Source of the DNA: Promethearchaeota archaeon
Lineage (GTDB): Archaea; Asgardarchaeota; Lokiarchaeia; Sigyniarchaeales; SOKP01
DNA: 37,709 nucleotides
Assembly (NCBI GenBank): GCA_013375485.1
Contig: JABXKB010000005.1
Coordinates: forward strand, 1-37,709
Direction: 5' to 3'
Below are positions 405 through 11,234 of this stretch, piece after piece. The position numbers and the translations under genes were made by a program. The notes beneath the pieces were generated by a model. The model saw only the letters and a list, made by a program, of their open reading frames with translations. It did no database searches and was not told the origin of the DNA. Position 1 is the first letter of the stretch. Each line of letters starts with the position of its first letter.

Positions 405-1757
405 TTGAATTATAATGAAAAAAGAAAAAGACTATCAACAATTTTCATTAAAAATAAAAATCTAATAATTAGAGAGAAGAAAATTCGAATCGAAAAGAAT
501 ATGAAAGTTAAAAGACCATCAGATGATTTAATTAAAAGAAACTTAATTCGACAATATAGTCAAGATAAATACAATAAAATGAAGGTAATTGTAATAGAGC
601 AATTGCAGAAATATTCTAAAAGTGGTGAGCGATTACATAAAATTAGTGATGTAGTGATACGTAGTGAAGACGCTATACAATATGCGAAACTAATATTGGA
701 AGAAATCTTCAGAGATAGAAGTAGAAGCGAAATTATTTATGATTTAATTTTTGGTCGAGCTTGTACATCATACAAAAAGGTTAGCATTGACTGTAATAAC
801 GCTGGATTTAAGTTAAAAACTACCCCATTAGAATGGTTTAAATTAGTAAAAAATAGAAAAAATTCTGGAAAGGGAATGAAAAGAGAGCTAAAGGTAAAGG
901 TAGAATGCAAGAGAAATGGTCATGAAACATATAAAACTATTGAAACTATTAATAGATTTGGTTGTAAAATTTGTGGTGGATTAATAGGAGCTGAAAATTT
1001 GCCTCGAAAAACTATAGAGTACTATAAATTGTTAAATCTTATTGAGGACACTCCTTTTAAGTTAATATCTACCAAAAAACAGTTTAAAGATGCTATTAAT
1101 GAAGCCAAATCTAAAGGTAAGAGATCAAATTATGCTTATTTAGAATGGAGGCACGAATGTGGTCATGAATTTGTAAGAACCTATCATAATTTTATACGCT
1201 ATTTAAGTTGTCCAAAGTGTAACCAATGGAAGAATCAAAAAATCACTCATACTTTTTGTGAATACGCCTTTGAATGTCCTTTTGAAGTCGAAAAAAGTAT
1301 GAGAAAGATATTTAATATTGAAAAAAATCCTGAAATAAAAGATTTACATGATAATGTACATATTGATATTTTTCAGGAGTTGTCAGATTTAAGAGATAAA
1401 AATGGAAATATTATTATGTTAGGAGTTAGATACAATGGAAAGCAACATGATAATAATCCAGAAGGATTTGATACTTATAAAAAAATTGTTGGAAGTCCAA
1501 ATGTAGAATATCGAAGCGAGAGATGGAGATTATTATGGAAGGATTGGAGGAAATTGATTAAGACTGATGAAATTAAAAGAGTCATTTTTGTAAAGAATAA
1601 AAAATATGGATATTATCTTATCGAAGTTGATTATAGAATACCTCCAAGCCAAAGATTGAGTTATATTATTTCTGAATTTGAAAGAAAAACTGGGGTGAAA
1701 TTACCAAATAAAGAAAATGTTGATTGGAGAGAGTTATTATACAAATACAGATCATAG
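405..1757 (+). CDS. Double zinc-finger, Vsr/PD-(D/E)XK-like endonuclease homolog
   Basis: Protein of about 450 aa from a TTG at 405; an ATG at 501 (residue 33) is an alternative start. Two treble-clef/zinc-ribbon units are visible: C168, H173, C187-x2-C190, and C252-G-H254 with C269-x2-C272 (CPKC). The C-terminal part resembles Vsr-like/EDxHD homing endonucleases: FECPFEVEKS, then HIDIF (D321), then GVRYNGKQHD. In most relatives the last block reads IEYDGxQH; here the Glu position is Arg342 and the Asp position is Asn344, while Q347-H348 are kept, so nuclease activity is uncertain. The N-terminal ~120 residues are basic and helical and match nothing I recognise. It is a lone gene 123 bp upstream of an intron-bearing tRNA gene, a plausible site for a mobile element, but no terminal repeats were seen. 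Confidence 0.6.
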   Translation: MNYNEKRKRLSTIFIKNKNLIIREKKIRIEKNMKVKRPSDDLIKRNLIRQYSQDKYNKMKVIVIEQLQKYSKSGERLHKISDVVIRSEDAIQYAKLILEEIFRDRSRSEIIYDLIFGRACTSYKKVSIDCNNAGFKLKTTPLEWFKLVKNRKNSGKGMKRELKVKVECKRNGHETYKTIETINRFGCKICGGLIGAENLPRKTIEYYKLLNLIEDTPFKLISTKKQFKDAINEAKSKGKRSNYAYLEWRHECGHEFVRTYHNFIRYLSCPKCNQWKNQKITHTFCEYAFECPFEVEKSMRKIFNIEKNPEIKDLHDNVHIDIFQELSDLRDKNGNIIMLGVRYNGKQHDNNPEGFDTYKKIVGSPNVEYRSERWRLLWKDWRKLIKTDEIKRVIFVKNKKYGYYLIEVDYRIPPSQRLSYIISEFERKTGVKLPNKENVDWRELLYKYRS

Positions 1758-1904
1758 TCTTACTTTGATTATGATATTATTTGATTTAAGAAAATAATAA
1801 AGAAGTAATTTGAGATTTTCTCCACTTTATCAAAAAATATAATTAATTTCGTTTATTATAATAATAAATATGATATCAGTGGGCCTGTAGATCAGTGGAA
1901 GATC

Positions 1905-1936
1905 ATAATCATATTTCATGATTTGAATCTGAAATC
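1905..1936 (+). other. tRNA-Ala intron 1, non-canonical (near position 25/26)
   Basis: About 32 nt separate the D stem (ends 1904) from G1937, which serves as position 26. The insert contains a hairpin AATCAT / ATGATT with a 5-nt loop, as expected for the intron side of a bulge-helix-bulge substrate of the archaeal splicing endonuclease. ATC occurs at both ends (1902-1904 and 1934-1936), so the exact junction can slide by 3 nt. Confidence 0.75.
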
Positions 1937-1954
1937 GCTTGGTTCGCATCCAAG

Positions 1955-1983
1955 ATATCAAATCTTTTGATTTGATCTGGAAG
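1955..1983 (+). other. tRNA-Ala intron 2, non-canonical (near position 43/44)
   Basis: About 29 nt between the 3' strand of the anticodon stem (ends 1954) and the variable loop (starts 1984). It holds a perfect 8-bp hairpin, ATCAAATC / GATTTGAT, with a TTTT loop (1957-1976). AAG precedes both ends and A follows both, so the cut site can slide by up to 4 nt. It does not sit at the canonical 37/38 position. Confidence 0.75.
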
Positions 1984-2045
1984 AGGTCACGGGTTCAATT
2001 CCCGTCAGGTCCATTCTACTATTATACATCTAAAAAGGATTTTAA

Positions 2046-4649
2046 ATGGCACAAGAAAAAATATATCCAAAACGTTTTAATTTTAAATTAGTTCAAGAGA
2101 AGTGGACGAAATATTGGGCTAAAAATAAGATTTATGCATTTGATAAAAGCCGGAAAGATGAAGTTTTCACAATTGATACACCACCTCCATTTGTTAGTGG
2201 AGTATTGCATATTGGACAATATTTAAATTATGCTTGGATAGATTTTGTAGCAAGATATCGGCGAATGAAAGGAGAAAATGTATATTTTCCTCAAGGATGG
2301 GATTGTCATGGATTACCTGTTGAATTAGCAGTAACAAAAAACTATGGAATATCTAAAGATAATCGCGAAAACTTCATAGAGAAATGTAGAGAATGGGTAG
2401 AAAATAATATTCAAAACATGACTAAACAATTGGACGAGATAGGATATTCAACAGATTGGGATTATACTTATCGAACAATGAATGATGATTATAAACGAAA
2501 AGTTCAATTATCGCTTTTAGATTTTTATGAAAAAAGTTTGCTTTATAGAGATAAATTTCCAACTCATTTCTGTGTGAATTGTGAAACCTCTGTAGCGAAA
2601 GCAGAAGTAGGATATCAAGAGGGGTCTGGAAAATTATGGTATTTAAAGTTACCAATTGTAGGGAGAGAAAATGAATTTATCACTATAGCTACAACGCGTC
2701 CTGAATACATGGAGGCTTGCGTTGCTGTAATAGTTCACCCAAATGATGAACGTTATTATGATATTTCTGCTGCTGAGATAGAAATTCCTTTTACTAACCG
2801 TACTGTTCGAGTTTATATGGATACTACAGTAGATATGAATTTTGGTACTGGTGTTGTTTATGTTTGTACTTATGGAGATGAGATGGATATTAGATGGAAA
2901 CTTGAATATGATCTGGATGAGATCCAAATTTTCACTGAAGATGGCCATATGAATGAAAATTCCAAATATCAAGGGTTAACTATTATGGAAGCACGAGAAC
3001 AAATAGTTAAAGATCTTGATAGAATGGGATTGATCGAAAAAATTGAAGATTATGAACATAGTATAATTATACATTCAGAACGATCATCTTGTAGGAAACC
3101 TATAGAATATTTACCTGTAAATCAGTGGTTTATTAATGTTAAGGATTTCACAGATGAAATTATAGAATCTGGAGAATTAATGAAATGGTATCCCGAAAAA
3201 CAAAAACAAAGATTAATAGATTGGGCAAAAGGTTTAGATTGGAATTGGGCAATTTCACGTCAGCGTTTTTTTGGTACTCCAATCCCGTTTTGGTTTTGTA
3301 ATGAATGTGGTGAAATAATTCCACCAAATAGGGAAGATTTACCATTAGATCCTAGGGAAGTTTCATCTCCATTAAAAGAATGTCCAAAGTGTAAAAGTAA
3401 TAATATTATTGGTGAAAAGGATATATGTGATTGTTGGATTGACTCAAGTATTTCTCCTTTAGAAATATCAAGATGGACAGAGGATGATAACTTTTTTAAA
3501 AGGACATATATAAATGCAAAAGTTCATCGCTCACAAGGTTATGAAATTATTCGTACTTGGTTATTTTACAGCTTATTTCGATGTAAGATTTTAACTGGAA
3601 AAGCTCCTTTTTATGAAGCAATGATTAATGGGATGGTTGCTGGTCCGGATGGAAGGCATATGTCAAAGAGTCTTGGAAACTATATTTCCCCAGAGGAAGT
3701 TATGCCTGAATTTGGGGCTGATTCAATAAGATATTGGACTGCGATGGGATCACTCGGAGATGATTACCCCTTTGAATTCACTTGGATAAATTTGCAAAAC
3801 AAACAACCCGTATCAAATGAAATTATATTGAGAGAAATAGAAAAGCTTCCAGAAGATAAATTTAACAAAAAGTATCGTAGGAGATTTGAGCAATTAATTG
3901 GGGCTTCAAGATTTTTAACTAAGATTTGGAATGCGTATAGATTTTTATATTTAAATTTAAATAAGATAAAATTGAATAATATTGATATTAATCTTAAGGA
4001 ATTATCGACAATTGACTGCTTTTTCTTTTCAGAATTTAATGAAAATTTAAATTTAATTACTAGCTATTTTGATGGGTATAATTGGCACGGTGCTACGATG
4101 ATCTTACGTACATTCTTTTGGAGTGAAATCTGTGATAATTATATCGAAGCTATAAAGCATAAATTTTATGCTGAGGATCAAAGAACAAGAGAAATTTCCT
4201 TAAAGAATGCTTTAAACCTTTTTTACAAATTATTAACCATATCTTCTGTTATAATGCCTTTCATTGCAGAAGAAATATATTCTATTCTCTATAAACAATT
4301 TAAAGACTTAGATTCTATACACTTAGAAAATTGGCCAATGTCTTACGAGGATATAGCTGAAGGATTAGCTGAACATGGTAAATTAGGTATTGAAATCATT
4401 AAATTTCTAAGGACGTTAAAGTCAAAACTTCAAATACCATTGAATCAGAGTGTTGGAAGAATAATTTTAATATCAGAAACAAATCAACTTAAAAATATTG
4501 AGATCTTAAAGGAAGATATAAAAAATACCATAAGAATAAAGGATTTAGAGATAATTGGGAAACAATTAGAAAAATCTATTAAAGAGAAACCAGATTTAAA
4601 AGAAAATCTAGAAGAACAAAATATTATAGTTTATTTTTTTAAAGAATAA
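2046..4649 (+). CDS. valS: Valyl-tRNA synthetase, archaeal type
   Basis: Class Ia synthetase charging tRNA-Val; 867 aa, normal for the archaeal family. The ATG follows AAAGGAT. The Rossmann-fold HIGH-like site is HIGQ (H55-Q58) in PPPFVSGVLHIGQ, where archaeal ValRS often has HIGN. GWDCHGLPVE follows. The CP1 editing domain starts near residue 215 with TTRPEYMEACVAVIVHP, the ValRS form of the TTRPE motif. ISRQRFFGTPIPFW (~400) is ValRS-specific and precedes a zinc-ribbon-like CxxC pair. The KMSKS loop is HMSKS (~538-542) in GPDGRHMSKSLGN. An anticodon-binding helical domain follows, then a short Lys-rich C-terminus. IleRS shares the GWDCHGLPVE block, but the editing and ISRQR blocks favour ValRS. 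Its stop faces the end of the convergent ScpB gene, 18 bp away. Confidence 0.95.
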   Translation: MAQEKIYPKRFNFKLVQEKWTKYWAKNKIYAFDKSRKDEVFTIDTPPPFVSGVLHIGQYLNYAWIDFVARYRRMKGENVYFPQGWDCHGLPVELAVTKNYGISKDNRENFIEKCREWVENNIQNMTKQLDEIGYSTDWDYTYRTMNDDYKRKVQLSLLDFYEKSLLYRDKFPTHFCVNCETSVAKAEVGYQEGSGKLWYLKLPIVGRENEFITIATTRPEYMEACVAVIVHPNDERYYDISAAEIEIPFTNRTVRVYMDTTVDMNFGTGVVYVCTYGDEMDIRWKLEYDLDEIQIFTEDGHMNENSKYQGLTIMEAREQIVKDLDRMGLIEKIEDYEHSIIIHSERSSCRKPIEYLPVNQWFINVKDFTDEIIESGELMKWYPEKQKQRLIDWAKGLDWNWAISRQRFFGTPIPFWFCNECGEIIPPNREDLPLDPREVSSPLKECPKCKSNNIIGEKDICDCWIDSSISPLEISRWTEDDNFFKRTYINAKVHRSQGYEIIRTWLFYSLFRCKILTGKAPFYEAMINGMVAGPDGRHMSKSLGNYISPEEVMPEFGADSIRYWTAMGSLGDDYPFEFTWINLQNKQPVSNEIILREIEKLPEDKFNKKYRRRFEQLIGASRFLTKIWNAYRFLYLNLNKIKLNNIDINLKELSTIDCFFFSEFNENLNLITSYFDGYNWHGATMILRTFFWSEICDNYIEAIKHKFYAEDQRTREISLKNALNLFYKLLTISSVIMPFIAEEIYSILYKQFKDLDSIHLENWPMSYEDIAEGLAEHGKLGIEIIKFLRTLKSKLQIPLNQSVGRIILISETNQLKNIEILKEDIKNTIRIKDLEIIGKQLEKSIKEKPDLKENLEEQNIIVYFFKE

Positions 4650-4667: not shown

Positions 4668-5708
4668 TTATTCTTCAATTTCTTCATTTTTACTTATAGG
4701 GTCATTTTGACTCCCTTCTTCAATTTCACCTAGAGTTTCATTTAGATCATCCTCTTCAATTTCACCTGGAGGTTCACTTAAATCCCCTTCTTCAATTTCA
4801 CCCGAAGGTTCAATCTGACCTCCTTCTTCTAGTCCTAATTGAGATATCATAACACTTTTCATTTGTCGTATATCTTTTGGTAACCCAAACATATCAGCAT
4901 ATTTATCTGTGGTGGTTAATTCGTGAGATCTTCCTTTTTTTGTAGCATTTATAAATCCATAATCTAAAAGGTACTTTACGTGTTCATATGCTCCAGTACC
5001 TCTCAACTTAATAACCATTGATTTTAATATTGGTTGTTTTATAGCAATAACTGTCAAAGTTCTTAAATATCTTTCTGCTATTGCCCCTCCTTTAGCAAAC
5101 TTCGAAACTTTTTCTGTGTATTCTGGTCTAATCTGCATTTGATATCTCTCACCAATTTGTGCGATAATTAAAGCAGTAGGGCGCTCTAAATAATCGAAGG
5201 CTAATTCATTTACTAAAATTTCTACTTCCTTTTTAGGAAATTCTAATTTTGTTGATAATTCTTCTATGGTTAAAGGTCCACCAGCAGCATAAAGAGCAGC
5301 TTCAATTAAATTTCGATGAAAAGCTCTTGTTTCAAGTTCTAATGATTTTTCGTCAAGAACTGTGCTATCTGATGTGACTTCAGCTGAGTTTGTATCAGTT
5401 TCAAACTTTTGTTCTTCTATAGATTCTTCAATTAATAGACTTACTGGTTCTTGCTCTAATTCTTCAAGATTTACAAGATTTTCTATTTCTTCAGAATCTC
5501 CTTCTTGTTCTTCGATAATCTCGCCTTCAATTTTTTTTATTGAATCATTTGAGTCTATTTGTTCAAATTTTTCAATTGATTCTTCTTCATTAATCTTTTC
5601 TACTTCTTTAATTTCTTCACTAATTTCTTCTATATCTTCTTCCTCAGATATGTTTTTAGGGATATCTTCTATTTCCTCATTATTTTCTTCATCGGAATTT
5701 TCTTCCAT
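4668..5708 (-). CDS. scpB: ScpB-like condensin subunit with long acidic tails
   Basis: Winged-helix (kite) protein that would bind the ScpA kleisin in the SMC-ScpAB complex. The ScpB core is residues ~122-292: FHRNLIEAALYAAGGPLTIEEL (wHTH 1), YLRTLTVIAIKQPILKSMV and TGAYEHVKYLLDYGFI (wHTH 2). Unlike ordinary ScpB (about 180-220 aa), this 346-aa protein has an N-terminal ~120-residue tail made mostly of E, I, S and D, and a C-terminal ~54-residue acidic tail containing 12-residue repeats of the form GEIEEGDLSEPP. ATG start with GGTGA four bases upstream; ScpA ends 41 nt upstream, so the two are probably co-transcribed behind SMC. The acidic tails may mediate contact with basic partners or compete with DNA (inference). 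Confidence 0.9.
   Translation of the reverse strand: MEENSDEENNEEIEDIPKNISEEEDIEEISEEIKEVEKINEEESIEKFEQIDSNDSIKKIEGEIIEEQEGDSEEIENLVNLEELEQEPVSLLIEESIEEQKFETDTNSAEVTSDSTVLDEKSLELETRAFHRNLIEAALYAAGGPLTIEELSTKLEFPKKEVEILVNELAFDYLERPTALIIAQIGERYQMQIRPEYTEKVSKFAKGGAIAERYLRTLTVIAIKQPILKSMVIKLRGTGAYEHVKYLLDYGFINATKKGRSHELTTTDKYADMFGLPKDIRQMKSVMISQLGLEEGGQIEPSGEIEEGDLSEPPGEIEEDDLNETLGEIEEGSQNDPISKNEEIEE
4718..4825 (-). repeat. Three 36-bp tandem repeats inside scpB
   Basis: The plus-strand string CTTCAATTTCACC recurs at 4718, 4754 and 4790, an exact 36-bp period, encoding three 12-residue units (GEIEE followed by variable acidic/Pro residues) in the acidic C-terminal tail of ScpB. The units have diverged at third positions but keep the period, as expected of slippage-derived coding repeats under selection for acidic composition. 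Confidence 0.85.
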
Positions 5709-5749
5709 ATTTTCACCACATATGATAATTATTCTTTAAGATCTAATTT

Positions 5750-6751
5750 TTATTTAAGATTAATTGAAATATTTTGAAAATCTTCTTCTTGACTTAAAGT
5801 TAATTTATTTCCTGTAGACAGGAACATTAGAGCTAAAAACATCCTTACTAAAGAAAATTTCCGTCCAATACTGGTTTCTTCTTCATCTTTAATAATATTT
5901 GTTAAATCAAATATATTAGATTCGTTATTATTTAAATTAATTGTAGCTTTTATTCGATTATACCATGAATCATGCAATTCTTGAACTGTTTGTTCCCTTC
6001 CACTAATGTGTTTTAGAAGTTCTTTAGGTAATTGTGCTTTAGACTTCATTTGGATTTTTTGTTGTTTTAGTTCATCTCTTCTCATCTTCCTTCTTCTTAA
6101 TTTTTCCTTATTCTGCATAACTTCTATAATAGCAGATCTCATTGCGTCAAATAATTCATCTTTTGTGGCAATTTGCATTTTAGGTGAAATTGGTTGGGGT
6201 AATGCTTTGGGAATTGATCTAGAATGTCTTTGTCTAAATCTTTCTAATTCTTCTCTTTTCTGGATTTGCTCTTCTTCTTTTATAATGCTGGAGATTTTAT
6301 AATGATGCAAAGTTGCAGAGGTTTTAAGCGCTATTCCAGAGATTTTATAATTAATCAAGTCTTCATGAAGCATATTATCAAAAAAGGTATCAACCAACTT
6401 TGACAAATCATAAAAAGCAATTTCTGACTCTTTAGCTAATTCAGTATCTAAAAGACTTGAAAATGGTGGTTTCTGCCAAAATTTCAATTCTACCTTGTCC
6501 TTTCTCAATAAAGCAAGATCTTCCTCATCATCAAAACTAGCCACTAGTTCTTCTTCCAATTCCTCTGGTTCCTGAGATCGATCAATGAAGTCAGGATGAG
6601 ATACCACATTCTGAAGAAGTTCAACAATATCTTTTTTCTTAGACTTTGAAGAAATTTTTATATTATTTTTCGAGGCAAAATCCCTTAAATCTTTGACTGT
6701 CCATTCATTAAACTTATATTCTTTATTAGCATTTTGTTCATCATTCGAAAT
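5750..6751 (-). CDS. scpA: ScpA kleisin with N-terminal SAP-like motif; probable ATT start
   Basis: Kleisin that bridges SMC heads. The core is recognisable from ELAKESEIAFYDLSKLVDTFFDNML and INYKISGIALKTSATLHHYKI (N-terminal kleisin helices), a charged Arg/Lys/Gln-rich linker, and a C-terminal winged helix ending LVRMFLALMFLSTGNKLTL...FQNISI. The first standard start codon is GTG at 6607, but the frame is open for 50 more codons back to a TGA at 6758-6760. These codons read as protein: WTVKDLRDFASKNNI then KKKDIVELL, a SAP-like helix-extended-helix DNA-binding motif. No ATG/GTG/TTG lies in that stretch. An in-frame ATT at 6749-6751 sits 6 nt after GGTGA, giving 333 aa. If translation really starts at 6607 the protein is 285 aa and lacks the motif. 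It follows SMC by 31 nt. Confidence 0.8.
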   Translation of the reverse strand: MSNDEQNANKEYKFNEWTVKDLRDFASKNNIKISSKSKKKDIVELLQNVVSHPDFIDRSQEPEELEEELVASFDDEEDLALLRKDKVELKFWQKPPFSSLLDTELAKESEIAFYDLSKLVDTFFDNMLHEDLINYKISGIALKTSATLHHYKISSIIKEEEQIQKREELERFRQRHSRSIPKALPQPISPKMQIATKDELFDAMRSAIIEVMQNKEKLRRRKMRRDELKQQKIQMKSKAQLPKELLKHISGREQTVQELHDSWYNRIKATINLNNNESNIFDLTNIIKDEEETSIGRKFSLVRMFLALMFLSTGNKLTLSQEEDFQNISINLK

Positions 6752-6757
6752 TTTTGC

Positions 6758-6762
6758 TCACC
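6758..6762 (-). promoter_or_regulatory. Shine-Dalgarno (GGTGA) for scpA
   Basis: GGTGA on the minus strand, 21 nt past the SMC stop and 6 nt before the ATT at 6749-6751. The same GGTGA motif precedes scpB (spacing 4) and the gene starting at 21650 (spacing 7), so it is a working signal in this genome. It supports initiation near 6751 rather than at the GTG 150 nt downstream. Confidence 0.6.
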
Positions 6763-6782
6763 AATTTTGATTATTATTGTTA

Positions 6783-9700
6783 TTACTCTGTAATTGTTGG
6801 CTCGATATCCTCAAGTTCAAGAAGTCTTTTGGCTTCTTCCTCTAAATCAACACTAAAAATATCCGTTATCCCACTTTGCTGCATTGATACACCGTAAATT
6901 CTATCTGAGTTAACGATATTTTCCTCACGATGACTAATCACCATAAATTGAGCTTGTGAAGCAAATTCCTTTATAACCATTGAAACTCGATGTACATTTG
7001 GACCATCGAGTGCGGCATCAATTTCATCCATAACATAGAATGGAGCGGGATAAAATTCTTGTACAGCAAATATGAAAGATAAAGCAACTAAGGTTTTTTC
7101 TCCTCCGCTTAGAATCTCCAAACTTGAGATTTTTTTCCCGCGAGGTCTAGCTTCAATGCTAATTCCCCCCTCGAAGGGTTTATCTGGACGATCTAAAATC
7201 ATTTTAGCTGAACCTCCGGGACTGAGCTTTTGAAAAATTCTACTAAATTCTCTGTTAATTTCATGATAAGCTTTCATGAATGTACGTGTTTTTTCAAGTT
7301 CAATTTTATCAATGGCATCTAGAATTGATTTTCTTTCTCGTTGAATTGTTTGACGTCTCATATCTATCTCATCAAATCTTTCTTTCACTGTATCATATTG
7401 TTCAATTGCTTTTAGATTCACAGGTTCAAGGGTTTTTTTCTTCTTTGTTGATTCTATGATCTCTGATTGTAACTCTGCTTCTGAAAGATCCTCAGTTACA
7501 GGAGGTAACGAACCATATTCTTTAGATCGTTGGAATAAAGTTTCAATTTGGTCAATGCACATTATCTTTTTTGTTTCAAAATTATTTATTTTAGAGTTTT
7601 CCATAGAAAGATCTGATTTTAAGTCGGTTAAAATCTTCTGATATTCTTTTTGTTTTTTCCAAGATTCATCCTTTTCTTGAGTATATTTGTCAATCTCCTT
7701 TTGTTTTTCATCTTTTTTCATATTTTCATTATCTAAATTTTCTTTAAAACTTACTAATTCTTTTGATATTGACTCTACTTGTTCTTCAGTGTCCTTTATA
7801 TCTTGACCTAATCCTACAATTTTTTGTTCTCTTTCTTTATTTTTATTTAGCTCATTTAATTTTCCTTGAGATTTCTGTAAATCTTTATTCAATTTGTTTA
7901 ATTTTTTTTGAGCTGCTTTTTGTGATTCTAACTCTTCAGTTTTTTCATCTCTTAGAGAATCTATTACTTGTTGTCTCTGATCAACATTTTTTTGAATTTC
8001 TTCTACTTTAAAATTCAATCCTTCAATGTCATTTAAACAAGTTTCTATTTTATTATTCGCGTCAGTGTTTTCTTTTTTAATATCTTCGATAGAGTTGATT
8101 ATCCTCATTACATTTTCAAGTGCTCTTAAACGATCCATTGTATCTTCAAGTGTTTTATTTTCTTCATCTATTTGTTTTCGTAAATTCTCCGTAATTTCCC
8201 AAAAATTCTCTTTTTTAAGAATAAGATCATCAATACGTTTTTGGAAGGAATTTTGTTCAGCTTGTATATTTTTAATATTTTCTTCAGTGTTTATAATTAA
8301 ATTTTTCTTTTCTCCGATAAGATTATTCAATTTTTCTACATTTTCATCAATTTCGGTAATATTGTCAAATAAATTTTGAATCCCGTGTAATTCATGTAGT
8401 TTATCTCTCATATTTTCTTGTTCTTTTTGTTTAATATCAATGTCGTCTTGGATCTTAGAAATTCTATCCCAATATGTATCTTTAAGTTCTTTCAATTTGT
8501 TAATCTCATCATCTAAACTGTTGACTTCCAGTTGTTTATTGCTTATATTTTCTTCTCTTTCATGAATTTCTCCCTCTGCTTTTTTAATTCTTTCGTTTAA
8601 CTGATTAGTTCTTTTATTAATTTCTTCAAGTCTCTTATTATAAGCAGAAAGATTTTCAGAATAATGCTTTTTTAAAATATTACTTTCGGATAATTGTCTT
8701 TCAATTTTGTTGTAGTCATCCATTTGTGATTTAATATTTTCTGAGATCTCTTCCAATTGTTTGTATAATTCTTGACTTTTTGACATCGTAAGTTTTCTTA
8801 ATGATAAGTAGACATTTTCCAAGATCTCCATTAGATCTTGAACAAAACTGTCGAACGTAGAAGTCGATGATTGTACTTCTATATCAGCTGATTCTTTTAC
8901 TTTATCAATTAATTGATTAATTGTATCATCAGCATTATCTGTAAATAATTTTAAAGTCTGCATTATAGAATTAAGCATATCTGTCATTTCAGTAGACTTT
9001 TCTTCATCAGCGCCAACATCCTCAACTGTCTTCATAATATCAATTATATCTAGAATGTACTTTTTGAAATCTTCAGCAGATGATTCAATGGCTTCTGCAT
9101 TTGATTGTTGGATATTACCTTTAATAGATTCAACTGAGATATTAATATTCTGAGTAAGCATATTCAAAATTTGTAGAATTCCTGTAATATCTTTTGTATT
9201 TTTCTCATATTCTTCTTCAGATGACTCTATTTTTTGAGCCAGATTTTCTCTTTCTTGTGAAAGTTCTTCTAAACGTCTTTGAACATTCTCTTTTTTGTAT
9301 ACCGATTTTTCTGATTCACTGGTTACATTTATAAGATTATTATTTAAGGAATCAACTTGTAATTCTAAATTATTCTTCTCCCGATCTAATTTTGTTAATT
9401 CTTTTGTGAGAATTTTTAATTCTGTATTAATATTATCAATCTTTGCATTGTTATCATTGATTTCTGACTCGTAGGAATAGTTCTTCATTTTTACCAATTC
9501 TAAATCTTGCTCGTTTTTCCTAAAAACTGAATTTTCTTGCTTCAAGATTGCCTTTAATTTACTTAATTCTTTATTAATAGTCTCATTTTCTTTCAGTAAT
9601 TCTTTTACAGCTTTCTCAGCATCTCTACCTTTACTCAAATCTGTAATTTTCTTCTCAATAGAGGTTTTCTTTTCATTTAACTCTTGTATATTGCCTTGAT

Positions 9701-11234
9701 TCATTTTTATTTCCGTGTTTAATGATGATAAAGAAGCTTGAAAATCTATTAATTTAGAATTCAATTGATTTTTTTCTGCTTGAATGTTGTTTATATTATT
9801 TTCTAAATCTTTTTGGTTTTGATTTTCTTTAGATATTTTGGCATTTAAACCATTTATTCGTTTTCTAATTTCCGATTCTATTTTTTTCGTTGCTTCAATG
9901 GCTTCATCAATACTCTCAGCGTCTTTTTTTAATTTTTGTAATTCATTTTCTAATTTTTCCTTCTTTTCTTCATTTTTTTTAATACTTCCTCTAAGCATTT
10001 TAATTTGAGCGTTATTAGATGAAACATTTTGTTGTATTTTTGAAATTTCTGCATTAAAAAGAGATTTCTCATCCTCAGTATTTTTTATTTTGATATCGAA
10101 GTCAGCCTGATTTTGTTGTCTTTTTTCAATTTCATTTTTGGCTTCTTCAATATGATTCTCATATTCTAAAATTTCTTCTGAAACGCTCTCTATCAATGAA
10201 TCAAACGTTTGTCCTTCCTCAAGTTTCATTTGTTTGCTTTCTAGATTTTCAATCTCTTGAGTTAATTTGGTAATTGATTTTTTTGCTAAAGTTAAAGTAG
10301 TTTGACTGGAAGAAATTTCCGTCTTAATTTGAGTAATTTTTTCGGTTATCTCCTCTCTTTCTTTTTCTTTATCTGAAATGGTTTTTTGAATGTTATCCAT
10401 AACAAGTGATTCTTGTTTTAATACATCTTCTTGTCGGTTTATTTTTTCTTGCAATTCTTCAATGATTTTTAAGGATTTTTCGATTTTTCGTTCCAATTCA
10501 TCTTCTTCTTCCCTTAATTTTGATATTTTTAATGCAATCAGTTGAGAATTTAAAAAATTTATTTGTTCATCAATTTCTTTCCAAGCTAAAGCATCATTTT
10601 TCTCTTTTTCAACCTTCTTCAATTGAGCAGACACTTCTTTGAAAATTGCTTCAAATTGTCCTAAATCTCTTTCAGCTTTTTCTAATTCCTTTAATGTTGC
10701 ATCTTTCATTTCGTCATATTTTTGGAGACCTATTAATTCTTCAATAAAGTTCCTTCGATCTTCCGCATTCATATGGGTTAGTTCCACAATTTTTCCCTGA
10801 AGGACAAATTGATTACTACCATCTGGATCAACATTTGCTGCTGCTAATGCGTTAAGAATTTGTTGGCGAGTAGCTTTTTTTCCATTCATTTTATAACCAC
10901 CCCCACCACCTCTCTTGATTGTACGTGTAATTTCAAAATCATTAGGGCTTCCGGGAAAAACATTATCAGAATTATCGAAATATAAAGTGACAGAAGCTCT
11001 TTGAGAGGGATTCTTTCCTCGTGAACCAGCAAAGATCAGATCTTCTAAACTCTTAGCCCTCATCGTCTTTTTACTCAATCTTCCTAAAGAAAAACAAAGA
11101 GCATCAATAATATTTGATTTTCCAGCACCATTAGGTCCTACAATGCATGTAAATCCACTTGAAAGACGAATTGTAACAGTTCTATCTCCAAAACTTTTAA
11201 ATCCGCTCATAGAAATTTTCTTAATATAAGTCAA
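6783..11234 (-). CDS. smc: SMC chromosome condensation ATPase, long, no recognisable hinge
   Basis: 1483 aa from a TTG start with GGAG 7 nt upstream. N-terminal head: FKSFG, Walker A GPNGAGKSN (33-41), QGKIVEL (146-152). C-terminal head: signature LSGGEK (1375-1380), Walker B FYVMDEIDAALD (1399-1410), then ISHR. Between them lie two very long coiled coils (~200-680 and ~820-1260) rich in E, K, N, I, L. Typical SMCs are about 1150-1200 aa with a globular hinge carrying conserved glycines. Here the middle (~685-815) is an acidic, Ser/Thr/Met-rich, apparently helical segment with only two glycines and no hinge motif; there is also no CxxC zinc hook, so it is not Rad50. scpA and scpB directly downstream make it the operon's SMC. 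Confidence 0.93.
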   Translation of the reverse strand: MTYIKKISMSGFKSFGDRTVTIRLSSGFTCIVGPNGAGKSNIIDALCFSLGRLSKKTMRAKSLEDLIFAGSRGKNPSQRASVTLYFDNSDNVFPGSPNDFEITRTIKRGGGGGYKMNGKKATRQQILNALAAANVDPDGSNQFVLQGKIVELTHMNAEDRRNFIEELIGLQKYDEMKDATLKELEKAERDLGQFEAIFKEVSAQLKKVEKEKNDALAWKEIDEQINFLNSQLIALKISKLREEEDELERKIEKSLKIIEELQEKINRQEDVLKQESLVMDNIQKTISDKEKEREEITEKITQIKTEISSSQTTLTLAKKSITKLTQEIENLESKQMKLEEGQTFDSLIESVSEEILEYENHIEEAKNEIEKRQQNQADFDIKIKNTEDEKSLFNAEISKIQQNVSSNNAQIKMLRGSIKKNEEKKEKLENELQKLKKDAESIDEAIEATKKIESEIRKRINGLNAKISKENQNQKDLENNINNIQAEKNQLNSKLIDFQASLSSLNTEIKMNQGNIQELNEKKTSIEKKITDLSKGRDAEKAVKELLKENETINKELSKLKAILKQENSVFRKNEQDLELVKMKNYSYESEINDNNAKIDNINTELKILTKELTKLDREKNNLELQVDSLNNNLINVTSESEKSVYKKENVQRRLEELSQERENLAQKIESSEEEYEKNTKDITGILQILNMLTQNINISVESIKGNIQQSNAEAIESSAEDFKKYILDIIDIMKTVEDVGADEEKSTEMTDMLNSIMQTLKLFTDNADDTINQLIDKVKESADIEVQSSTSTFDSFVQDLMEILENVYLSLRKLTMSKSQELYKQLEEISENIKSQMDDYNKIERQLSESNILKKHYSENLSAYNKRLEEINKRTNQLNERIKKAEGEIHEREENISNKQLEVNSLDDEINKLKELKDTYWDRISKIQDDIDIKQKEQENMRDKLHELHGIQNLFDNITEIDENVEKLNNLIGEKKNLIINTEENIKNIQAEQNSFQKRIDDLILKKENFWEITENLRKQIDEENKTLEDTMDRLRALENVMRIINSIEDIKKENTDANNKIETCLNDIEGLNFKVEEIQKNVDQRQQVIDSLRDEKTEELESQKAAQKKLNKLNKDLQKSQGKLNELNKNKEREQKIVGLGQDIKDTEEQVESISKELVSFKENLDNENMKKDEKQKEIDKYTQEKDESWKKQKEYQKILTDLKSDLSMENSKINNFETKKIMCIDQIETLFQRSKEYGSLPPVTEDLSEAELQSEIIESTKKKKTLEPVNLKAIEQYDTVKERFDEIDMRRQTIQRERKSILDAIDKIELEKTRTFMKAYHEINREFSRIFQKLSPGGSAKMILDRPDKPFEGGISIEARPRGKKISSLEILSGGEKTLVALSFIFAVQEFYPAPFYVMDEIDAALDGPNVHRVSMVIKEFASQAQFMVISHREENIVNSDRIYGVSMQQSGITDIFSVDLEEEAKRLLELEDIEPTITE

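Follow-up and report, generated by a model that had tools for sequence, protein, structure and literature searches.

A tRNA-Ala(CGC) gene with two introns at unusual places in a Lokiarchaeon, and the differing introns of its close relatives

Between a glycyl-radical enzyme gene and valS in the analysed 37,709-nt stretch of Lokiarchaeal DNA (the window), 133 nt on the forward strand (1881-2013, sequence read directly) resemble a tRNA whose body is interrupted twice, which raises the question of whether a functional tRNA gene is present and which one. The Rfam model RF00005 spanned exactly 1881-2013 (+) with 42.7 bits (E 6e-6) and two insertions; apart from tRNA, no family reached its threshold in the Rfam search of the window. 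An exhaustive two-intron search, scored on stems and ortholog consensus, excised 32 and 29 nt and yielded a single mature sequence of 72 nt, GGGCCTGTAGATCAGTGGAAGATCGCTTGGTTCGCATCCAAGAGGTCACGGGTTCAATTCCCGTCAGGTCCA. This spliced form is a complete cloverleaf with all stems paired, the anticodon CGC, the pair G3:U70 (G1883 opposite T2010) and the discriminator A73; the CCA end is not encoded by the gene. Insert lengths, cloverleaf and G3:U70 pair are those that the first-pass annotation, made from the letters alone, had proposed. The locus is a genuine tRNA-Ala(CGC) gene with two introns at unusual places, and its precursor is probably spliced normally. The features, all on the + strand, are as follows.

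65-262, +: glycyl-radical enzyme, C-terminal end; upstream neighbour, synteny conserved (neighbourhood comparison)
1881-1901, +: exon 1, tRNA positions 1-22, acceptor 5' strand and D arm to the first base of the D-stem 3' strand (two-intron search, Rfam; same sequence in L045 and other orthologs)
1896-1899, +: predicted central bulge-helix-bulge (BHB) helix of intron 1, exonic strand, pairing with 1928-1931 (boundary search, fold/shuffle analysis)
1902-1933, +: intron 1, 32 nt, best placed at 22/23; bulges AG-A and AA-A (hyphen at the cut)
1928-1931, +: predicted central BHB helix of intron 1, intronic strand (boundary search, fold/shuffle analysis)
1934-1954, +: exon 2, positions 23-43 (direct reading, two-intron search)
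1938-1942/1950-1954, +: anticodon stem, within exon 2; G31-C39 where orthologs have A31-U39
1945-1947, +: anticodon CGC, within exon 2
1949-1952, +: predicted central BHB helix of intron 2, exonic strand, pairing with 1978-1981 (boundary search, fold/shuffle analysis)
1955-1983, +: intron 2, 29 nt, best placed at 43/44; bulges AG-A and AG-A
1957-1964/1969-1976, +: intron 2 hairpin, 8 bp (boundary search)
1984-2013, +: exon 3, positions 44-73, variable loop, T arm, acceptor 3' strand and A73 (direct reading, Rfam, two-intron search)
2046-4649, +: valS, valyl-tRNA synthetase, downstream neighbour, synteny conserved (class I synthetase domains by Pfam; presumably valyl-specific, a call made from its archaeal ValRS-like sequence)

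ARAGORN reported no tRNA in the window without introns and, with introns allowed, took the unspliced gene for a tRNA-Ser(UGA) containing a single 54-nt intron. A different cloverleaf with another anticodon, of which this call is an example, is hardly credible, since Ser(UGA) matches no ortholog, whereas the two-intron solution agrees with the ortholog consensus at a score of 133 of 135 and an ortholog from isolate 9R3_44 (L061) carries the form of that solution without introns. On the spliced 72-mer, ARAGORN itself called tRNA-Ala(CGC). The identity first assigned is thus borne out by the Rfam match, the unique mature solution, this call and the intronless syntenic ortholog. The accompanying warning that scanners could miss or mistype the locus was right as well, given what ARAGORN returned for the unspliced gene, and in practice ARAGORN-like scanners will overlook or mislabel such genes.

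The exact splice sites follow less directly, because short direct repeats at the junctions make 4 x 5 = 20 boundary combinations equivalent, with intron 1 anywhere from 22/23 to 25/26 and intron 2 from 40/41 to 44/45. Boundaries other than ours, with intron 1 at 25/26 or intron 2 elsewhere within its range, would leave the mature tRNA the same and change the excised RNAs; this degeneracy and the use of 25/26 in L052 and L065 count in their favour. We applied a BHB rule that requires a 4-bp central helix and places the cut on each strand after the second bulge base, two bases beyond the helix on its 3' side. In the window sequence all four central pairs form only at 22/23 (UGGA/UCUG) and 43/44 (UCCA/UGGA), which makes the other boundaries unlikely. 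The best place for intron 1 thus appears to be 22/23, which falls within the 3' strand of the D stem. It had been described as lying after the D arm. The site implied by that description, 25/26, gives no central helix in the window sequence. Neither best site is 37/38, as the first reading also held.

With 4/4 central pairs and a 3-nt bulge on each strand, both junctions are BHB-like as expected, in a relaxed form in which helices do not directly flank both sides. The intron hairpins are offset from the central helix by the unpaired base 1927 in intron 1 and a U.C mismatch (1956/1977) in intron 2, no outer exon helix for intron 2 was found in the fold analysis, and two of the central pairs of intron 1 are G.U. 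Relaxed forms count as accepted members of the archaeal BHB tRNA introns (PMC4090602). Among 5000 trials with shuffled introns, 3 reached the scores of both central helices. The same rule gave 4/4 central pairs in most other Lokiarchaeal tRNA-Ala genes and 3/4 in some, with introns at 22/23, 24/25, 25/26, 27/28, 32/33 or 37/38; site 22/23 and the motif of intron 1 recur in the tRNA-Ala(UGC) genes of L039, L031 and L035. Folded as a whole, the precursor has its predicted energy minimum (-40.6 kcal/mol) in a structure other than the double-BHB fold, which reaches -33.3 kcal/mol; the introns may therefore have to be cut in a set order or during transcription.

This predicted fold and the weak central helix of intron 1 would also suit a dead tRNA gene that carries two insertions and has lost splicing. 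We consider such decay very improbable: the 72 exon bases depart from the ortholog consensus in a single, compensated pair, all stems pair, the place before valS is kept, and the gene is the only tRNA with such a body found in the assembly by an Rfam search in which 150 of 343 candidates were scored. The existence of another tRNA-Ala(CGC) had been raised as a point to check; that search, within the 150 of 343 candidates scored, found neither a second tRNA-Ala(CGC) nor a UGC gene with the same body, nor any tRNA-Ala(UGC) in this genome (G000). Relatives have a tRNA-Ala(UGC), and its absence here probably reflects a gap in the assembly, which comprises 457 contigs. Ten of the 24 Rfam tRNA matches among the same 150 of 343 candidates exceed 100 nt, the window gene included, and one of them is possibly a tRNA-Ser with an extended variable arm. 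A rough one-intron solver gave plausible, non-unique boundaries for the other tRNAs of the genome and, predictably, could not solve the two-intron gene; its rough solutions place introns in Lys and Arg tRNA genes at about 43/44 to 46/47, so site 43/44 is probably not unique to the window gene. ARAGORN additionally called a tRNA-Sec (UCA) at L022 1501-1588.

The orthologs were drawn from 21 Lokiarchaeota records obtained by a valS search (L045-L065). Of these 21, 20 (all but L059) carry a tRNA-Ala(CGC) ahead of valS, either adjoining it or separated from it by an insertion; in the window, 32 nt separate the tRNA from valS. In these relatives the tRNA is in turn preceded by the end of the glycyl-radical enzyme gene; L057, whose contig starts too late, could not be scored. 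Compared with the 72-nt intronless gene of L061, the spliced window tRNA has five differences (31, 39, 49, 65 and 67) with base pairing kept at all of them, and compared with L045 only pair 31-39 differs, A-U having become G-C. Exons are near-identical across the relatives, and introns differ in site and sequence. The valS-linked copies of L061, L054-L058 and L063 are intronless, 72 nt each; L045-L051, L060, L062 and L064 have a single intron at 32/33 (central pairs 3/4 in L051, L060 and L064), L052 one at 25/26 and L053 one at 27/28, and L065 two, at 25/26 and 37/38. Against these states of the 20 valS-linked relatives, the window has two introns at 22/23 and 43/44.

In a ValRS tree the window fell among the 32/33 carriers in a 9-row clade (support 100/99), with its exact place inside the clade less sure (87/89). 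The simplest reading would be that the 32/33 intron of most close relatives was lost here and those at 22/23 and 43/44 were gained, all at the same syntenic locus and inside one genus, and we give this reading an even chance. If it is true, the locus catches Asgard tRNA intron gain and loss nearly in the act. The comparison shows the intron sites of a single orthologous gene changing within a genus. No copies of either intron, as a sign of transposition, were found at up to three mismatches in the own genome or 20 related ones. That close relatives have different introns, or none, in the same gene is the new part, and the turnover is more interesting than the non-canonical introns themselves; the syntenic series, with 0, 1 or 2 introns at six sites, offers material for testing archaeal tRNA intron gain and loss.

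The surroundings of the gene vary too. A 450-aa ORF at 405-1757 (+) has a weak match to a phage HNH endonuclease (phrog_559, E 3e-5) with a treble-clef hint; it separates the glycyl-radical gene from the tRNA in the window and in none of the 21 related loci, and a relative (62% identity) makes up the C-terminal portion of a larger G022 protein (L087). A link between the insertion of this HNH-like gene just upstream and the intron change is possible. L046 and L065 have a gene between tRNA and valS, by eye isoprenylcysteine methyltransferase-like, followed by a partial copy of the tRNA 3' end (3039 and 3863 in L046, 3038 and 3863 in L065) that might be a remnant of integration at a tRNA. ScpB-like, ScpA-like and SMC genes (by eye) lie in a row at 4668-11234 (-), adjoining valS.

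Two EndA-type genes are present in the window's genome, as in most of the other 55 genomes searched, together with the RtcB ligase. EndA alpha aligns with chain 3p1z_B of an Aeropyrum pernix-type tRNA-splicing endonuclease (E 4e-35) and has the catalytic residues Tyr138, His146 and Lys177; EndA beta lacks the catalytic His. The alpha stretch LGINKPR aligns to the Lys44-Pro45-Arg46 loop, which has been connected with a broad substrate range (PMC12397907). Separate catalytic and structural subunits with the lysine loop in alpha point to an (alpha beta)2-type enzyme, and thereby to the broad BHB specificity that the first-pass annotation had suggested looking for. The series of loci could serve to test how much an Asgard EndA loosens its substrate requirements.

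Altogether, this is with high confidence a functional tRNA-Ala(CGC) gene whose precursor would contain two BHB introns, because Rfam match, unique mature form and intronless syntenic orthologs agree, A31-U39 is compensated by G31-C39, exons are conserved and introns variable, shuffles rarely match, the cut rule fits most orthologs, and the EndA pair and RtcB are encoded. We infer splicing in the cell, with its transcription, cutting order, ligation and charging, as follows. A precursor with BHB-type introns at 22/23 and 43/44 would be cut on both strands by the (alpha beta)2-type endonuclease, two nucleotides beyond the 3' end of each 4-bp central helix, RtcB would ligate the three exons, and the 72-nt product would fold into the cloverleaf and be charged by AlaRS via G3:U70.

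Archaeal introns of this type have been described before, and the two-intron gene itself is not a new phenomenon. Introns interrupt 92-95% of the tRNA genes of Atabeyarchaeia and Freyarchaeia, and more than half of all their tRNA genes have several, often non-canonical ones (PMC11291895), so the gene belongs to a known kind and the rarity outside crenarchaea and thaumarchaea first claimed for it is out of date. It shares with these Asgard lineages non-canonical introns and more than one of them per gene; unlike that report, the present analysis resolves the splice sites of a single gene, in a Lokiarchaeon, and follows that gene through its syntenic orthologs. Non-canonical multi-intron tRNAs thus occur in Lokiarchaeia, on whose tRNA introns our literature search found no dedicated paper. 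tRNAscan-SE 2.0 handles such genes with BHB models trained on other phyla (PMC8450103). Crenarchaeota, e.g. Thermoproteales, have up to three introns per gene and likewise combine short introns at 22/23 and 25/26, both already listed as archaeal sites, with relaxed motifs that accompany alpha2beta2 endonucleases (PMC4090602, PMC8450103); the window host belongs to a different phylum, and 43/44 is not among the sites named in the PMC4090602 passage that lists them. According to PMC4090602, the split tRNA-Ala(CGC) of Caldivirga maquilingensis, cut at 29/30, has the same isodecoder, a non-canonical break and BHB processing; its exons lie in separate genes, whereas those of the window are all in one precursor.
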